NCBI GenBank assembly: GCA_017396365.1
Contig: JAFQMD010000028.1
Span: forward strand, 1-64,000
DNA: 64,000 nucleotides
From: Clostridia bacterium
Lineage (GTDB): Bacteria; Bacillota; Clostridia; Christensenellales; Borkfalkiaceae
Direction: 5' to 3'
The position numbers were made by a program, and so were the translations under genes. Position 1 is the stretch's first letter; the number at the start of each line of letters is the position of its first letter. The notes below the pieces were generated by a model. The model was not told the origin of the DNA. It did not search any database and saw only the letters and a list, made by a program, of their open reading frames with translations. This document shows positions 1,100 to 10,115 of this stretch, in pieces.

Positions 1100-3616
1100 T
1101 TAAATCTTATCGTCTTTTTTAACGAGTTTTGAATTGAAAAACTGTATTAGTTTTGTAAGCGCTTTTCCAAGCGTTAAGTCAAATTGAATTAAGCAAATCA
1201 AAACCACAGCGTACGGCCAAAGCGTAACTATATCCGTTTGAATATTAGGCAGTTTAAAAATGCTCATTCCAAAGAATAAAAGAAGAAGTATTGCGGCGGT
1301 TAAGAAAAATACTAAAAAGCCTCTGTAAAGGTTGTAAGGCTGACAAATTATGTGCATATACGAAAGACCGCCAAGCGTAAGCGCCGCAACCATAAAGGTG
1401 TTTTTCATCTCTGTTGGAAGTTCGGGAGTCGTAACGTGTTTTGCAAGCAGTTCGTAAACGAGAATATTTAAAATCAATATACATGCGCCCGGAATTGCGT
1501 GCGAGAATATGTATCCTACGAATTTTCCACTTACTTTGTTATGGTTAGATTCCATTGACAAAGCAAACGAGCCTATACCTATTACCATAAGTTCAAGCAT
1601 AGTCATCATTGAACTTGTAAACGGGAACAACTCTTTTCTTAAAATTGAAATAATAGCAAACGTCGTTGTAAACAGCGTTTTCATAAGGAAAAGAGCAGAC
1701 GACTTTTGAATATTGTTAATAACCCTTCTTCCTTCGCCAACGACGAGCGGAACTGAGTCAAAATTGTTGTCCATCAAAACTATGTGGGCAATGCTCTTAG
1801 TAGCGTCGCTACCTGCGGCAACGGTAATAGAGCAGTCGGCTTCTTTCATTGCTAAGATATCGTTTACGCCGTCACCAGTCATTGCAACGGTATGCCCAGC
1901 AGACTTCATTGACTGAATTAAAAGGGCTTTTTGCTCGGGGGAAACACGTCCGAAAACGTTGTATTTGTTAGCAATACTTCTAACTTCTTCGTCGCTCATT
2001 CCTTCCAAACTTACGTATTTGTCCGCGCCTTCAACGCCCGCTCTACGCGCAACTTCTGAAACTGTAAGCGGGTTATCTCCCGAAATTACCTTTACCGTAA
2101 CGTTATTTTGCTTAAACCAGTCAATGGTTTTAATTGCTTCTCGGCGAATATTGTCGCTTAAAGTGATAAGCGCAAAAGGTTTCATATCGCTTGGAATAGA
2201 GTCCTTATTGATTTCCTTATCCGAATGCGCCAAAATTAAAACTCTTTGACCGAGTGAAGTGTAGTTGTTAATTTGGTTTTGAAGAGACGTCGAAACGTTT
2301 TTCTTACCTAAAACGAATTCAGGCGCGCCGAGCGCAAACGTTCCTGCGTTTTTATTATTAAGTAAGAAACTTACTGCTGAATACTTTCTATCTGAAGAAA
2401 ACGGAATAGTTTTAGACGCAACCATTTTATTTTCAGATCCGAAATAAGTTCTGAGCGCTTGGGCAGTTTGGTTGTTGTCGTTAAGCGCGTATTGCATAGA
2501 CGCAATTACGTCGCTAATCGGTACTGGGAAATCGCCGTTAAATATTACACAGTTTGCAACTTTCATCTTGCCGTCGGTAATAGTTCCCGTTTTGTCAAGA
2601 CATAAAACGTCAACTCTTGCAAGCATTTCAAGTGAAAACATATCTTGAACTGAAGTATTTCTACTTGCAAGTCGTAAAACGCCGACTGCGAGCGCTAAGG
2701 TCGTTAAAAGGAACATTCCCGCAGGAATCATACCTATAATAACCGCAGCGGTCTTTGTAACAATCTCTCTAACGCCGTCGCCAGTCAACTTTCCATCTAT
2801 AACGAATTGAATACCTGCGTCGTTAACTGGGTTTCTAAATACGTTGTTATAGTTTGTGATAAACGTTCCTATACTTATAGGAATAATCAAGATACCGATT
2901 ATTTTGATTATCCAACGGAGCGTAGTCATTATTTCTGACTTCGGCTTTTTGAATTTCCTTGCTTTAGAAGAAAGTTTTTGAATATATCTCTCTTCGCCAA
3001 CCGAATCGGTTACGGCAAGAGCAGAACCGCTTACTACGAAACTTCCCGATAAAATCTTATCGCCTGCGTTTTTCTTAACGGGAACTGATTCGCCCGTAAG
3101 CATCGACTCGTTTACTTCAATAGTTCCGCTAAGCACAGTTCCGTCGATTGAAATTTGATTGCCTATTGAAAAACTTACTATATCGTCTAAAACGATATCT
3201 GTAACAGGCATATCAATTAGCTTTCCGCCACGGAGCACTTTTGCAGTAGGTTCGTTTAAAATCGACAGTTTTTCTATTGATTTTTTTGCCCTAATTTCTT
3301 GGAAAATACTAATCGAAAGGTTTGCCGCGTAAATTATAACGAAGAAATAATTTGCGCCGAACGGCTCGCCAACGACGATTAACGCTACTAAACATAATAG
3401 ACACAAGAAGTTGAAAAAGGTGAGCAAATTAGAGCAAATAATCTTTGCTACCGAACGAGATGAGTTGTTGCTTCTTGCGTTGATTTGATTTTGTGAAACT
3501 CTGGTTGCAACCTGATCGGCGGACAAGCCGTTTTGAGCGTCAGGGGTAAATCTTTGCTCGGGCGGTACTGGCACGGGAGCAGTCGTCTTTTTATTTTTTG
3601 AATTTTTGTTAAACAT
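1100..3616 (-). CDS. Cation-translocating P-type ATPase
   Basis: An 838-residue membrane pump that couples ATP hydrolysis to cation transport. All catalytic signatures are present: TGES in the actuator domain (174-177), the phosphorylation motif DKTGT with Asp341, a GAPE segment of the nucleotide domain (about 430), SGDNP (about 512) and GDGVND (581-586). The membrane helix before the phosphorylation domain carries IPAG (about 297-300), as in CtpE-like calcium or broad-specificity pumps and unlike the CPC of heavy-metal pumps. The ion cannot be fixed from sequence. There is no N-terminal metal-binding domain. The start lacks a clear Shine-Dalgarno sequence. IS200 has inserted just behind the stop. 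Confidence 0.9.
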   Translation of the reverse strand: MFNKNSKNKKTTAPVPVPPEQRFTPDAQNGLSADQVATRVSQNQINARSNNSSRSVAKIICSNLLTFFNFLCLLCLVALIVVGEPFGANYFFVIIYAANLSISIFQEIRAKKSIEKLSILNEPTAKVLRGGKLIDMPVTDIVLDDIVSFSIGNQISIDGTVLSGTIEVNESMLTGESVPVKKNAGDKILSGSFVVSGSALAVTDSVGEERYIQKLSSKARKFKKPKSEIMTTLRWIIKIIGILIIPISIGTFITNYNNVFRNPVNDAGIQFVIDGKLTGDGVREIVTKTAAVIIGMIPAGMFLLTTLALAVGVLRLASRNTSVQDMFSLEMLARVDVLCLDKTGTITDGKMKVANCVIFNGDFPVPISDVIASMQYALNDNNQTAQALRTYFGSENKMVASKTIPFSSDRKYSAVSFLLNNKNAGTFALGAPEFVLGKKNVSTSLQNQINNYTSLGQRVLILAHSDKEINKDSIPSDMKPFALITLSDNIRREAIKTIDWFKQNNVTVKVISGDNPLTVSEVARRAGVEGADKYVSLEGMSDEEVRSIANKYNVFGRVSPEQKALLIQSMKSAGHTVAMTGDGVNDILAMKEADCSITVAAGSDATKSIAHIVLMDNNFDSVPLVVGEGRRVINNIQKSSALFLMKTLFTTTFAIISILRKELFPFTSSMMTMLELMVIGIGSFALSMESNHNKVSGKFVGYIFSHAIPGACILILNILVYELLAKHVTTPELPTEMKNTFMVAALTLGGLSYMHIICQPYNLYRGFLVFFLTAAILLLLFFGMSIFKLPNIQTDIVTLWPYAVVLICLIQFDLTLGKALTKLIQFFNSKLVKKDDKI

Positions 3617-3772: not shown

Positions 3773-3801
3773 TTGACAAAAAACGGCATATTTGCTAAAA
3801 T
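3773..3801 (+). promoter_or_regulatory. Promoter of the M29 aminopeptidase gene
   Basis: Perfect -35 TTGACA (3773-3778), 17-bp spacer, -10 TAAAAT (3796-3801). A short leader follows, with AAAGGAG ahead of the ATG at 3820. Confidence 0.75.
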
Positions 3802-3819: not shown

Positions 3820-5052
3820 ATGACAAAAAAACAATTAAATTTATATGCCGAATTGCTTGTAAAAATCGGCGTAAATCTTCAAAAAGGCGAGATGCTCGTC
3901 ATCTCTGCGCCGATTAGCGCTGTTGACCTTGTTAAAGCGACCGTAAAATGCGCTTATAAACACGGCGCGGAAAACGTTAACGTCTTGTGGAACGACGACG
4001 AAATTTCAAAACTCGGCTATAAATATCGCTCTAAAAAGAGTTTAGCCGAAGTTCCAGATTGGATTGTCGAGCAAAGAGAATATTTTATTGATAAAAAAAT
4101 TGTGTATTTGGGCATTTCTTCAAACGACCCCGAAGCCTTAAAGGGTATAAATCCCGAAAAGTTGGCAATATCAAGAAGAGCGTCGGGAAAAGCGCTTAAA
4201 AAATTCCACGATTATACTAGTTCAAACAAAATAAGATGGGCGCTCGGCGCGTATCCAAATAAGGCGTGGGCTAAAAAAATGTTTCCAAATCTCTCTCCAA
4301 AGCAAGCGATGGACAAACTTTGGGAATATATTATGAAATCGGTTAGACTTGACACGGAAAACCCTGTTTTAGAGTGGGAAAAACATCAAGAAAGAATATT
4401 AAATCGTTGTAAAATATTAAACGACGCTAAAATTGATTCGTTTACCTATAAAAATTCACTTGGAACTGAACTTACTGTCGGCATGCCTAAGGGATACATT
4501 TTCTGCGGTGGGGCGGAAAACGGCGCTTTAGACGGTATTGCTTTTACGGCAAATCTCCCAACCGAAGAAGTTTTTTCTTGTCCCGATAGAAATAGGGTAA
4601 ACGGCAAAGTTTATTCAAGTATGCCACTTTGTGTAAACAGCGCTATCGTAAACGACTTTGGTTTTGAGTTTAAAGACGGTAGAATTGTTGATTTTTGGGC
4701 AAAAGAAGGTTATGAAAACCTTAAAAATATCGTCGAAACTGACGACGGCTCGCACTATTTAGGCGAAATTGCGCTCGTAGGCTACAATTCGCCGATAAGA
4801 AATTTAAACACTTTATTTTATAAGACGCTTTTTGACGAAAATGCAAGTTGCCACTTTGCAATCGGCGCTTGCTATCCTACTTGCGTTGAAGGTGGTGGGG
4901 ATATGTCAACCGAAGAACTTTTACAAAAAGGACTTAACGACTCTCTCGAACACGTAGATTTTATGATAGGAACTGCCGATTTAACTATAACTGCAAAAAC
5001 CGTTGATGGAAACGAGTTGAAAGTTTTTGAAAACGGAGACTGGGTGTTTTAA
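3820..5052 (+). CDS. M29-family metallo-aminopeptidase (AmpS/AmpT type)
   Basis: This 410-residue cytoplasmic protein matches the thermophilic-aminopeptidase family M29, dimeric cobalt/zinc exopeptidases that trim N-terminal residues from peptides. The N-terminal half has the family's Rossmann-like fold. The C-terminal half carries the metal-site region, including GEIALVGYNSPI, FYKTLFDENASCHFAIGACY and the terminal HVDFMIGTADLTI block, which supply the Glu, His and Asp ligands. Length is normal for the family. It starts with a strong AAAGGAG site, and the next gene follows after 9 nt, so the two are probably co-transcribed. Confidence 0.9.
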   Translation: MTKKQLNLYAELLVKIGVNLQKGEMLVISAPISAVDLVKATVKCAYKHGAENVNVLWNDDEISKLGYKYRSKKSLAEVPDWIVEQREYFIDKKIVYLGISSNDPEALKGINPEKLAISRRASGKALKKFHDYTSSNKIRWALGAYPNKAWAKKMFPNLSPKQAMDKLWEYIMKSVRLDTENPVLEWEKHQERILNRCKILNDAKIDSFTYKNSLGTELTVGMPKGYIFCGGAENGALDGIAFTANLPTEEVFSCPDRNRVNGKVYSSMPLCVNSAIVNDFGFEFKDGRIVDFWAKEGYENLKNIVETDDGSHYLGEIALVGYNSPIRNLNTLFYKTLFDENASCHFAIGACYPTCVEGGGDMSTEELLQKGLNDSLEHVDFMIGTADLTITAKTVDGNELKVFENGDWVF

Positions 5053-5061
5053 GGAGTAAAA

Positions 5062-6711
5062 ATGGATAAGATTAGAGAAATATCATATAAAATTAACAAC
5101 TTAAATTCAGTTAAAGAGCCCGTTTTAAAGGCTTTTGAAGAAGATTTTTCTAACGTTAAAGGCGTTTTAGGCGTTAAATTTGACTTTGATAACTCAAAAA
5201 TCACCTACGCAATCGACGAGTGGACGAGTGATTACGACGTTTTGTGCAAACTCAACGAAATTTGCGGTGACAAAGGGCTTGATTTATCTTTTGATGACGA
5301 CGAGTCGGAAAATGAAGAAGAAATTGATAGTCAAGAAAAATCGGATGGCGACAAAACTCAAGAGATAGAAGAAACCGAAGAAGACTTATCAAAAATTCAA
5401 GAAGGCGACGAATTTGATGAAAAAGAAGAAAAAGTTAAGGGTAAGTTGAGTAAAGCCGATTTTATTGAAAAAGCAATAATTTTTGGACTTGCGCTTTTAG
5501 TAACTTTTGTTGGAATTTTTGTAAACGGCGCTATAAAGCCTTGGATTTTAATGATTGCCTTTACTTTGGCGTCTTATGAAACTTTATACGACGTAGTAGT
5601 AAAAATTGCAGTAAAAGAATACTTTTTAGACGAAGTTTTAACGTTTGCAGGCGCTCTATTGTTTATGTATTTAGGTTACACCGAACTTTCTGCAACGATA
5701 ATGATTTTATATAGCGGAATTTCGTTTATAAAAGTTTTATCAACTCACAATAACGCTTTAAAATTAGAGAAGTTAAAACTTGAAGAAGAAAGTTCAGAAG
5801 ACGAAAATCTTAAACAAGAACTTGCAAAAAAAATAGAGTATTTTGAAAGTAAGGATAAAATTTGCGATTTAAAAAGTTTAAAATTATATTCAAATAAATT
5901 AAAATTTAGCATTGCTTTTGTCGTTTTAGCAGTTTTAACCGTATTTGTTCCACCGCTTTTTTCAATCAAAACTTACTGGACAACGCTCAGCGACAAGTGG
6001 CTGTATCTCGGCGCGACCGTTTTAACTCTTTCGAGTTTAGGGGAATATTTTTTCAGTTGTTTCAGTTGCGCAAAATTTTCGCTTTTTACTGCAAATGAAA
6101 ACGGCGTTCAAATTAACGACTACGACAAGTTTATTTCTTTTGCTAAAATAAATAAGTTAAGTTTTGAAATCGACGGCGTTTTGTTAAATGAGGACGGCAA
6201 CGTAAAAAATGATTTAGACGGAGCGCTTAAAGAGTTAAAATACGACTTAAACGTAACTTCTGAAATACTTTCTTCACAAAAGTCGGATAAGGTTTCGCAA
6301 GTTAAAAAAGGCTACGAATTTAACGGCGCAATAGCAGGCGCGTCGGATAAATACAAGGTAGAGCACGTTGAAAAAACGGATTCAATTTACGTGTCAAACG
6401 GAGATTTAGATAAAGACGTTTTAAGTAAAACTAAAAAGGCGATTGCCTTTAATTCGTTAGGCGACGTAACTGTGTTAGACGGGCAAGTAAAGCGAGTTCC
6501 GTTTATCATAAAACTTTCAAAAAGAACAGATAAAATCTTAAATTTTAATAAGTTTTTCACTTTAATTTTCAAAGTCTTATTCATTTTAATTTCATTAGTT
6601 TTAACGATATTCACTTCGTTTAAATACGGCTACGTTTTATACGGCTTAGACGCGTTTATTAGAATTATAGTATTGCTAAACTCTGAAAGAAATTCTCAAG
6701 AAGTTGTATAA
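5062..6711 (+). CDS. Degenerate P1B-type ATPase-like membrane protein (pseudoenzyme)
   Basis: 549 residues, not a working ATPase. Residues 1-80 look like a ferredoxin-like heavy-metal-associated domain without its CxxC. Residues 80-130 are a very acidic linker. The rest follows the layout of a heavy-metal P-type ATPase: paired helices around 135-228, helices around 280-330, then a segment where CPC should be (SCFSC, 332-336), one where DKTGT should be (EIDGV, 369-373), one where GDGxND should be (NGDLDKD, 446-452), and the post-catalytic KLSKRTDKILNFNKF leading to two last helices. The actuator domain is replaced by a charged helix (230-275) and the nucleotide domain is drastically shortened. 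It may be a metal sensor or assembly partner. Homology is inferred by eye. Confidence 0.6.
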   Translation: MDKIREISYKINNLNSVKEPVLKAFEEDFSNVKGVLGVKFDFDNSKITYAIDEWTSDYDVLCKLNEICGDKGLDLSFDDDESENEEEIDSQEKSDGDKTQEIEETEEDLSKIQEGDEFDEKEEKVKGKLSKADFIEKAIIFGLALLVTFVGIFVNGAIKPWILMIAFTLASYETLYDVVVKIAVKEYFLDEVLTFAGALLFMYLGYTELSATIMILYSGISFIKVLSTHNNALKLEKLKLEEESSEDENLKQELAKKIEYFESKDKICDLKSLKLYSNKLKFSIAFVVLAVLTVFVPPLFSIKTYWTTLSDKWLYLGATVLTLSSLGEYFFSCFSCAKFSLFTANENGVQINDYDKFISFAKINKLSFEIDGVLLNEDGNVKNDLDGALKELKYDLNVTSEILSSQKSDKVSQVKKGYEFNGAIAGASDKYKVEHVEKTDSIYVSNGDLDKDVLSKTKKAIAFNSLGDVTVLDGQVKRVPFIIKLSKRTDKILNFNKFFTLIFKVLFILISLVLTIFTSFKYGYVLYGLDAFIRIIVLLNSERNSQEVV

Positions 6712-6726
6712 ATAGTAATTAGACTA

Positions 6727-6763
6727 AAAGGGGCGAACGCTTTTTTAAAGCGTTCGCCCCTTT
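6727..6763. terminator. Bidirectional terminator between convergent genes
   Basis: A 15-bp stem (6727-6741 with 6749-6763) with A and T tracts at its ends. It serves both the rightward membrane-protein gene and the leftward trmO. Confidence 0.85.
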
Positions 6764-7529: not shown

Positions 7530-7628
7530 ATGAAACCTTACGAACCGTGGAAAACAATTTCAGATAAGCAAGACTGTATTTATAAAAAACCTAAGGAGCA
7601 AGTTAGAAATGAACGCAAAAAACAGTAA
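7530..7628 (+). CDS. Possible 32-residue leader peptide or microprotein ahead of spoVAC
   Basis: An ATG at 7530, only 6 nt after the candidate sigma-G -10 box, opens a 32-codon frame that ends at 7626-7628, 20 bases inside spoVAC. The peptide is very basic with a lysine-rich C-terminal half (begins MKPYEPWKTI) and one cysteine. The spoVAC ribosome binding site AAGGAG lies inside this frame, so its translation would be coupled to spoVAC. I recognise no family. It could also be an untranslated leader that is open by chance. Confidence 0.35.
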   Translation: MKPYEPWKTISDKQDCIYKKPKEQVRNERKKQ

Positions 7629-8064
7629 TCCTGCATACTTAGAATACGTTTCAAAAATTTCGCCTAAAACGAACGAAAAGAGAAGTCTTTTCAGAGCGTT
7701 TTGGGTTGGTGGAACTATATGTTTAACAGGTCAAGTAATTCGCTTTGCGTTAGAATTTTTCTTCGGGCTATACGGCGACGTTTTGGCGGGTACTACGTCG
7801 ATAATTTTAATAGGAATAGGCTCGTTTTTAACAGGGCTTGGAGTATACGATAGGATAGGCAAGTACGCAGGCGGTGGCTCTATCGTGCCCATTACCGGTT
7901 TTGCAAACTCCGTCGTATCGCCTGCTATGGATTTTAAAACTGAAGGCTATATTTACGGGCTTGCCGCAAAAATGTTTGTAATAGCAGGACCTATAATCGT
8001 ATTCGGCGTACTCGGTAGCGTTGGCGTTGGTGTAATATATTTTATCGTGGGGTTGTTTTTATAA
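7609..8064 (+). CDS. spoVAC: Stage V sporulation protein AC
   Basis: A 151-residue membrane protein of the SpoVAC/SpoVAEB family, part of the inner-membrane channel that moves dipicolinic acid into the developing spore and out at germination. An N-terminal cytoplasmic stretch (about 30 residues) precedes several hydrophobic helices and the conserved loop YAGGGSIVPITGFANSV. The ATG at 7609 has AAGGAG eleven bases upstream. spoVAD starts on the last base of its stop codon. SpoVAC alone behaves as a mechanosensitive channel in other spore formers. Confidence 0.95.
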   Translation: MNAKNSNPAYLEYVSKISPKTNEKRSLFRAFWVGGTICLTGQVIRFALEFFFGLYGDVLAGTTSIILIGIGSFLTGLGVYDRIGKYAGGGSIVPITGFANSVVSPAMDFKTEGYIYGLAAKMFVIAGPIIVFGVLGSVGVGVIYFIVGLFL

Positions 8065-9071
8065 TGAGTTTAACTATGTTTTTTAAAAATAAACCCGCCA
8101 TAATTGCAACTTCAACAATTTGTGGGCCAAAAGAAAGTCAAGGAAATTTGGCCAAGTATATAGAAACCAAACTATTAGACGATACGTTCGGTGAAAAAAC
8201 TTATGAAAAAGCCGAGTGTAAAATGCTTTCGTTCGTCATTGAGAAAGCAGTCGAAAATGCAAAACTTAACTTAAACGAAATCGACTGTTTAATTTCGGGC
8301 GATTTGTTAAATCAAATAATTTCTTCAAGTTTTAGCGCACGAAAATTAGACGTTCCGTATCTAGGCGTATATAACGCGTGTTCTACAATGAGCGAATCCT
8401 TACTTTTATCTGCGGTAATGGTTGACGGTGGATACGTTAAAAACGTAGCGTGCGCAACGGGTAGTCATTTTTCAACCGCGGAAAGACAATACCGCTATCC
8501 CCTTGAATTAGGCTCGGTAAGACCACCACAAGCGCAATGGACGGTAACGGGAGCAGGTTGCTCAATAGTTTCGTCAAAAGGCGGTCTTTTGCCAAGAATA
8601 ACGACTGCAACCGTTGGGAAAGTTACTGATTTTGGAGTAACGGACGCAAATAATATGGGCGCAGCAATGGCGCCTGCTGCTTTTAGAACGCTCGTTAATC
8701 ATTTTGAAGATACTAACAGAAATCCAGATTATTACGATTTGATTTTAACGGGGGATTTAGGAGCGCTTGGCAGTCGATTGCTTAAAAAACTCTGCGACGA
8801 TAAAGGTATAAATATTGACAAAAACCACGTTGATTGCGGTGAAATGATATATAACATTGACGAAAAAGAATATCAAGGTGGAAGTGGCGCAGGTTGTAGC
8901 GCAGTCGTATTTAATTCTTACGTGTATAAAAGGCTTTTAAAGCGTAAATTTAATAAAGTTTTATTCATTGCAACGGGGGCGCTACTTTCAACGCTATCGA
9001 CACAACAAGGGGAGACTATTCCATCGATAGCGCACGCGGTGAGCATTGAAAACGGGGTGAAAGATGATTGA
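8064..9071 (+). CDS. spoVAD: Stage V sporulation protein AD
   Basis: 335 residues of the SpoVAD family, a thiolase-fold protein that binds dipicolinic acid on the outer face of the spore inner membrane. Recognisable blocks are GVYNACSTMSESLL (equivalent to the thiolase active-site loop), the GSVRPPQAQWTVTGAG segment, and GGSGAGCSA near the C-terminus. Length is typical. It overlaps spoVAC by 1 nt and spoVAE by 8 nt, so the three are translationally coupled. No spoVAA, spoVAB or spoVAF is present, which is the usual reduced set in Clostridia. Confidence 0.95.
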   Translation: MSLTMFFKNKPAIIATSTICGPKESQGNLAKYIETKLLDDTFGEKTYEKAECKMLSFVIEKAVENAKLNLNEIDCLISGDLLNQIISSSFSARKLDVPYLGVYNACSTMSESLLLSAVMVDGGYVKNVACATGSHFSTAERQYRYPLELGSVRPPQAQWTVTGAGCSIVSSKGGLLPRITTATVGKVTDFGVTDANNMGAAMAPAAFRTLVNHFEDTNRNPDYYDLILTGDLGALGSRLLKKLCDDKGINIDKNHVDCGEMIYNIDEKEYQGGSGAGCSAVVFNSYVYKRLLKRKFNKVLFIATGALLSTLSTQQGETIPSIAHAVSIENGVKDD

Positions 9072-9435
9072 CGTATTATTGATGTTTTTAAAAGCGTTCG
9101 TAGTTGGCGGGGCAATATGTACGATTGCGCAACTACTCATAAATTATACTAAAATTACTTCGGGTAAAATATTAGTTTATTTTTTACTTGCCGGACTTTT
9201 TTTGCAAGCAATCGGAGTTTATAAATATATAGTTGAATTTGCAGGCGCAGGGGCAACAGTTCCTATTTGCGGATTTGGTTATTTACTCGCTGAAGGGGCT
9301 ATAAAAGGCGCGAAAGCGGGACTTTTCGGCGCTTTTACGGGTGGACTTGCATCAGCCTCGGCAGGTGTTACCGCAGCGATTGTTTTCGGTTATTTAAACG
9401 CATTAATTTTTAAAGCAAAATCTAAGAAAAATTAG
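9064..9435 (+). CDS. spoVAE: Stage V sporulation protein AE (SpoVAEb type)
   Basis: A 123-residue integral membrane protein homologous to SpoVAC, with the matching AGAGATVPICGFGYLLAEG loop and three or four hydrophobic helices. It is the third channel component for dipicolinate transport. The start follows a GGGGTGA site inside the end of spoVAD. It is the last gene of the three-gene spoVA set. yunB follows after 35 nt. Confidence 0.93.
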   Translation: MIDVLLMFLKAFVVGGAICTIAQLLINYTKITSGKILVYFLLAGLFLQAIGVYKYIVEFAGAGATVPICGFGYLLAEGAIKGAKAGLFGAFTGGLASASAGVTAAIVFGYLNALIFKAKSKKN

Positions 9436-9464
9436 TAAATTTTACAATAAAATCTTCATATATT
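9436..9464 (+). promoter_or_regulatory. Possible sigma-E-type promoter of yunB
   Basis: TAAATTT (9436-9442), 14-bp spacer, CATATATT (9457-9464), compared with sigma-E KMATATT and CATACANT. Seven of eight -10 positions fit, but only five of seven at -35. yunB is a sigma-E gene in Bacillus. The ATG comes 6 nt after this box. Confidence 0.35.
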
Positions 9465-9470
9465 GTTATT

Positions 9471-10115
9471 ATGAAGAAAAATAAGAAGAAAAAATTTTCA
9501 CTAAAATTATTATCGTTTATAATTTCAGTAATAATTCTTGCAACCTGCTTATATTTTTCATCAAATAGAATAATGGTTGATTTAGCCTTGGAAACGTTTT
9601 CTTCTGCAATTTCAAATACAAGTTACAACGCGATAGAAAAAATGGTAAAAAGCGGTTACCGTTATGAAGATTTAACTAAAATTTGCCTAGATAGTAACGG
9701 TCAAGTTACGATGATTATTACAAACAGTTTAAAGGTAAACGAAGTTTCTTCAAGCATTGCGACCGACACCTATAATTTTTTAAAAAAGAAAATAGAAAAA
9801 GGTGTAGAAGTTCCGCTTGGAGCGTTTACTGGGCTTAGGCTTTTTAGTGGGTTCGGGCCTAAAATAAAGATGCCGTTAATTAGCGTAGCGTCGGTAAAAT
9901 GCGATATATTATCCGAATTTAGAAGCGCTGGGATAAACCAAGTGCGACACGTATTATATCTTAATATTATTAGCGTTGTTTCACTCGTAACTAAAACTAC
10001 GACAAAAACTGTTTCTGACAAAATAAACGTGCTCGTTTACGACAACTTAATAGTAGGAAAAGTTCCAGAAGTGTTCATTACGAGTCAACTTTTGGGTTCT
10101 GGCGTTGAAAAATAA
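9471..10115 (+). CDS. yunB: Sporulation protein YunB
   Basis: 214 residues with one N-terminal membrane anchor (about 11-28) and an extracytoplasmic domain of the YunB family, a sigma-E regulon protein needed for full sporulation in Bacillus but of unknown biochemistry. Diagnostic stretches are MIITNSLKVNEVSS, EVPLGAFTGLRLFSGFGPKI and AGINQVRHVLYLNI. No Shine-Dalgarno sequence precedes the ATG. A terminator follows the stop. The clustering with spoVA supports a spore role. Confidence 0.88.
   Translation: MKKNKKKKFSLKLLSFIISVIILATCLYFSSNRIMVDLALETFSSAISNTSYNAIEKMVKSGYRYEDLTKICLDSNGQVTMIITNSLKVNEVSSSIATDTYNFLKKKIEKGVEVPLGAFTGLRLFSGFGPKIKMPLISVASVKCDILSEFRSAGINQVRHVLYLNIISVVSLVTKTTTKTVSDKINVLVYDNLIVGKVPEVFITSQLLGSGVEK

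Follow-up and report, generated by a model that had tools for sequence, protein, structure and literature searches.

The reading of the gene at positions 5,062 to 6,708 of the window (the whole stretch of 64,000 nucleotides analysed here) as encoding a protein that descends from a P1B-2 (ZntA/CadA-type) ATPase and has lost catalysis largely holds, as judged from sequence comparison. Taken together, descent from such an ATPase, loss of pumping and a retained use are probable. The pump may have become, in stages that a single genus still displays, a membrane receptor or regulator that works without ATP and uses the Lys-Asp pair of the pump's ion site and an HMA-fold domain, an interpretation that we put forward tentatively. 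A dead pump kept by selection in several genera points to a second job.

Reading frame and operon setting

The gene is real: an open reading frame of 549 amino acids on the forward strand, with its ATG at 5,062 and its stop codon ending at 6,711. It forms a two-gene unit with an M29 aminopeptidase gene, from which it is separated by a 9-base gap, and its AAGGAG ribosome site overlaps the aminopeptidase stop codon (Table 1). The M29 gene lies directly upstream at all ten loci of the window's genus (g1), in most of them with few bases between, and it is the firm operon partner there and not in other genera: it does not adjoin the dead forms of genera g8, g13 and g16, nor does it occur at the g17 loci that were read. 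The coupling to an aminopeptidase proposed by the sequence-only reading (made from this DNA without database searches) consequently applies to g1 and does not extend to these relatives. The constancy of the pair in g1 would suit a membrane anchor dedicated to the aminopeptidase, but with the M29 neighbour missing from the other genera such a function is improbable.

Table 1 Features of the operon, its surroundings and the encoded protein (window positions).
Feature	Position	Strand	Basis
Pseudo-P1B-2-ATPase gene, 549 aa	5062..6711	+	TIGR01525 E 5.4e-6; family profile vs ZntA 4umv E 3e-47; homologues in 12/15 genomes of the genus
M29 aminopeptidase gene, opening the operon	3820..5052	+	PF02073 E 3e-153; immediately 5' of the pseudo-ATPase gene, 10/10 loci in the genus
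Promoter-like site TTGACA-17-TAAAAT, extended -10, 5' of the M29 gene	3773..3801	+	Consensus match only
Strong terminator-like hairpin, 17 pairs, 3' of the pseudo-ATPase gene	6727..6763	+	Sequence
Divergent intact P-type ATPase, syntenic neighbour	1100..3616	-	Called Ca2+-type from its best solved match, LMCA1
HMA-fold domain at the N-terminus (residues 1-77), lacking CxxC; W(A/T)S(D/E)YDV conserved	5062..5292	+	AlphaFold pLDDT 88; Foldseek and VIA-align
Acidic linker, residues 78-130, 25 D/E in 53	5293..5451	+	Sequence
Helices MA, MB, M1, M2	5452..5748	+	Hydropathy peaks 138-156, 162-180, 187-205, 209-227; aligned with ZntA
Charged helix in place of the deleted actuator (TGES) domain	5749..5910	+	Alignment with intact relatives
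Helices M3-M4 with FVPPLF; CPC position SLG at 6034-6042	5911..6096	+	M3 hydropathy peak; M4 by alignment only
P-domain remnant: EIDGV 6166-6180, SNGDLD 6394-6411; N domain deleted	6097..6537	+	Alignment
Helices M5-M6: N(x)7K 6547-6573, D..(x)7N 6649-6681; equivalents of ZntA K693, D714	6547..6681	+	Alignment, hydropathy

On the 3' side of the operon, positions 7,609-10,115 carry spoVAC-, spoVAD- and spoVAE-like genes and another membrane-associated gene, a trmO gene lying between in the opposite orientation (all named by sequence resemblance, trmO alone being backed by a search). This gene order is shared by several genomes of the genus; in G012 a cas9 gene of 1377 aa lies between the pseudo-ATPase gene and the spoVAD-like gene (L046:3008-7138). 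An open reading frame resembling an IS200-type transposase, recognised by eye only, is found at the edge of the region (positions 496-966).

Descent from a P1B-2 pump and the parts lost and kept

No family was matched in the Pfam search with the window protein; alone, it matched TIGR01525 (heavy-metal P-type ATPase) over residues 466-543 (E-value in Table 1) and, weakly, PRK11033 (ZntA) over residues 285-376. The gap between the window protein and the TIGR01525 ATPases is bridged by two relatives from the same genus, L004 and L006, which match TIGR01525 at E about 1e-34 and the window protein at 1e-80 and 2e-42, respectively. The profile-profile comparison called for by the sequence-only reading bears out the P1B-ATPase descent claimed there: a two-sequence profile (window protein and its G002 relative) aligned with intact P1B-ATPases over residues 380-545 with an hhalign probability of 99.2%. 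For a profile built from dead forms only, the best solved relative was ZntA (4umv), and the alignment runs from the first to the last helices, P domain included. The M5 signature of P1B-2 ATPases, N(x)7K, is present (NKFFTLIFK, residues 496-504), and the counterpart of the M6 signature DxG(x)7N is DAF(x)7N, in which the spacing of Asp and Asn is the same and the Gly is replaced. The KLSKRTDKILNFN segment, noticed earlier as a retained post-catalytic part, matches the conserved segment that follows the P domain and reads AKRT...N(x)7K in relatives.

The catalytic apparatus has been dismantled throughout. The A domain with TGES is deleted, no PF00122 match is found, and alignment with intact relatives confirms the charged helix described in its place, as well as the loss of the N domain, described as a stub, with its HP motif. 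The degenerate motifs read at the DKTGT and GDGxND positions, EIDGV and (S)NGDLD, do align there, and the phosphorylatable Asp is absent from its site. The third does not: the alignment is gapless from the Trp of the M3-M4 loop onward and places CPC on SLG (residues 325-327), which rules out SCFSC (residues 332-336), two turns further on, as a remnant of CPC. The position of the exit Glu (E202 of ZntA) is occupied by Leu. As far as the sequence can tell, a Post-Albers cycle would be impossible for this protein, and its anatomy excludes pumping.

Neither CPC nor TGES is kept in any of the 25 dead forms; HP is kept in five, DKTG in six and DKSG in two, these last eight all belonging to the window's genus. 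Within this genus a series can be followed from proteins that lack the A domain and retain DKTG and HP, through proteins with DKSG and without HP, to the window protein and L003, in which the N domain is gone too and no intact phosphorylation motif with its Asp is left. The order of loss in the lineage was: CPC, TGES and the A domain; then the N-domain motifs; last, the N domain and the phosphorylated Asp. The relatives that keep DKTG and HP with no A domain might suggest a split pump, in which a different gene would provide the A or the N domain. However, all four A-domain matches in the source genome (1.7 Mb, 91% complete) lie within complete ATPases, no stand-alone A domain is found in it, and an Asp that could be phosphorylated is missing from the site in the window protein; a split pump is close to refuted for this 91% complete genome, and is the least probable of the alternatives.

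More was kept than the membrane scaffold to which the protein had been thought reduced. The helix layout is indeed retained as judged by alignment, but so are the P-domain remnant and an HMA-fold domain at residues 1-77, which had gone unnoticed together with the P1B-2 M5 Lys and M6 Asp. Structural matches of the HMA-fold domain (Foldseek, VIA-align) are the metal-binding domains of CsoZ, CopZ, ZntA and ATP7B, with VIA Z scores of 9.3 against the ZntA N-domain (1mwy) and 9.9 against CsoZ (6ff1); it contains no CxxC, and its beta1-alpha1 loop has no Cys. The linker that follows is acidic in the window protein and His-rich in the intact relatives of g8. Seven hydropathy peaks were found, M4 being placed by alignment only; going by the family, the chain should cross the membrane in eight helices, and the P remnant and the HMA-fold domain should lie in the cytosol. 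The full-length AlphaFold model (three sequences as input) reached a pLDDT of 41, and we therefore make no claim on the fold of the membrane and P parts.

In ZntA, K693 and D714 are the counterion and metal ligand (PMC8880997, PMC6305203). The M5 Lys of N(x)7K is kept in 20 of 24 dead forms, with an Arg in one more, and no other residue of M5 is as well conserved; its M6 Asp partner is kept in 11 of the 24, including the window protein. Most of the M5/M6 ion site is lost in the g16 dead forms.

Orthology by locus, distribution and selection

Homologues are present in 12 of the 15 genomes of the window's genus, and almost all relatives, from several genera, have an uninterrupted frame; among named public records, the nearest found to hold a homologue belong to a Clostridia MAG (roe deer cecum). 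In the sister genus g8 the pump is still complete: seven intact pumps share the N-terminal domain and helices and carry CPC, DKTGT and GDGxND; TGES is replaced by TGEV in one of them and present in the others. Each is preceded by an ArsR-family gene (HMM-confirmed for two, the rest by similarity), and six of the seven are divergent from a Ca2+-type ATPase of the same type as the window's neighbour, the seventh lying at a contig edge. Dead forms occupy this locus in g1 (10 loci, with the M29 gene in between), g16 (6) and one genome of g8 (G052); ArsR accompanies 7/7 intact pumps vs 0/17 dead forms. The dead forms are thus orthologous by locus to the ArsR-linked P1B-2 (Zn/Cd-type) pump still intact in g8.

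This arrangement bears on a possible accessory subunit of the Ca2+-type ATPase, which adjoins the dead form in g1, g16 and g8. The same ATPase stands beside the intact pump too, which means that the adjacency is inherited; many genomes have a Ca2+-type ATPase without a dead form, and g13 and g17, which have the dead form and in which no such ATPase was found, argue against an obligate partnership. A subunit role is accordingly quite improbable.

In the tree, the intact g8 pumps and the dead forms make one group against all other P1B-ATPases, and with the root on the CopA side the intact g8 side and the dead-form side are each well supported, on long branches. Given the length of these branches, catalysis may have been lost once or several times, and the rejection of an independent origin of the G052 dead form within g8 (AU test, p 0.0125) is unsafe. 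Across 396 genomes of the order, the matches listed for other families are nearly all confined to the membrane part of P1B-ATPases; among those listed, weak longer matches are few (G486, G106, G496, G526).

Of the 24 g1, g13, g16 and g17 genomes with a dead form, the source genome included, 18 encode two or more intact P1B-ATPases of full length that pass the cut-off, several of the remaining six being fragmentary; the source genome and most dead-form genomes carry a second intact pump of the P1B type, about 630 aa long. In the seven g8 genomes with the intact locus pump, only this pump and one more pass the cut-off. G052 (90% complete) has a dead form (L052:6553-8085), whereas none of its P1B-ATPases passing the family cut-off is intact. 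In a low-completeness assembly of genus g15 (L102, G028), a dead form lies behind the end of an M29 gene and shows an in-frame stop in one match. The gene after the dead form belongs to the same family in all three g13 genomes (L050:5514-6536, L049:4961-5989, L051:9168-10193), the L050 copy being an aldose 1-epimerase by Pfam.

The dN/dS values of the window gene were 0.17 (first half) and 0.37 (second half) against G003 and 0.27 against G002, with 0.19-0.20 for two other dead-form pairs and 0.03-0.08 for the neighbour genes in the G003 comparison, all rough since dS is near saturation in some pairs. The pseudo-ATPase gene is under purifying selection, weaker than that on its neighbours; values of 0.17-0.37 indicate that selection retains the gene, and hence that the protein is folded and has a use. 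A decaying, functionless gene heading for loss would account for the fast divergence, the stepwise erosion of the catalytic parts and the presence of a second intact P1B-ATPase, but this is hard to reconcile with dN/dS well below 1, with the intact frames in several genera and with the short gap between the operon genes at most loci of the genus, and we regard it as very unlikely. The new role suggested by the sequence-only reading gains support from this selection, while metal sensing or scaffolding, its examples, would still be conjecture.

Proposed role and comparison with known systems

A non-pumping, cation-responsive membrane regulator appears the likeliest role, although we propose it with less than even confidence; it is favoured by the nature of the retained parts, namely the charges of the ion site, the P remnant and the HMA-fold domain. 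The packing of the helices would depend on a cation or on how the M5 Lys-M6 Asp pair is charged, and the P remnant and HMA-fold domain would hand this state to a partner protein. In the window's genus the candidate partner is the co-transcribed M29 aminopeptidase, a member of a metalloenzyme family; neighbours vary among genera, and no universal partner is visible. An extra P1B pump in the genome may plausibly have freed the locus pump for change. With no CxxC in the HMA-fold domain and CPC gone, binding of a soft metal would require other ligands. The loss of the Asp partner in over half of the dead forms, and of most of the site in g16, counts against a regulator, and a minor role would fit the weaker selection too.

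The main rival, next in order after the regulator, is a passive cation path, in which the Lys-Asp pair would gate a channel or facilitator made up of helices without catalytic domains. The kept helix layout and P1B-2 M5 Lys, with the whole ATP machinery gone, are compatible with it; against it stand the loss of the CPC ligands and the exit Glu, and the closing of the metal site in ZntA by the Lys next to the Asp (PMC6305203, PMC8880997). We consider such a path unlikely.

Enzymes that have died and taken new roles are well known among kinases and proteases. Our searches found no published description of a bacterial P-type ATPase as a dead enzyme with a new role, within a partial coverage of the literature from which subscription journals were mostly missing; for dead, pseudo or inactive P-type ATPases they returned TMEM94 alone. 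This human protein likewise has a P-type-ATPase architecture reported to lack TGES and ATPase activity (PMC12134183), although its status is disputed, PMC13322241 reporting a Mg2+ ATPase function. It differs in being eukaryotic, with ten helices and the full set of three cytosolic domains.

In the present case, complete pumps of the ancestral type coexist with intermediates and with the stripped form in related genomes at one locus, which makes the order in which parts were lost, and what remains without pumping, directly testable. Compared to ZntA/CadA (PDB 4umv), the window protein has the same helix layout as far as alignment shows, the same HMA-fold N-terminus, M5 N(x)7K, M6 Asp/Asn spacing and P-domain order, but lacks CPC, TGES, DKTGT, GDGxND, HP, the A and N domains and CxxC. 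Its nearest intact relatives are the ArsR-linked P1B-ATPases of g8 (e.g. L055:7667-9925), its sister group in the tree, which share the locus and the WASDYDV-type N-terminal domain, and differ in their intact catalytic motifs, their His-rich rather than acidic linker and the ArsR gene upstream.
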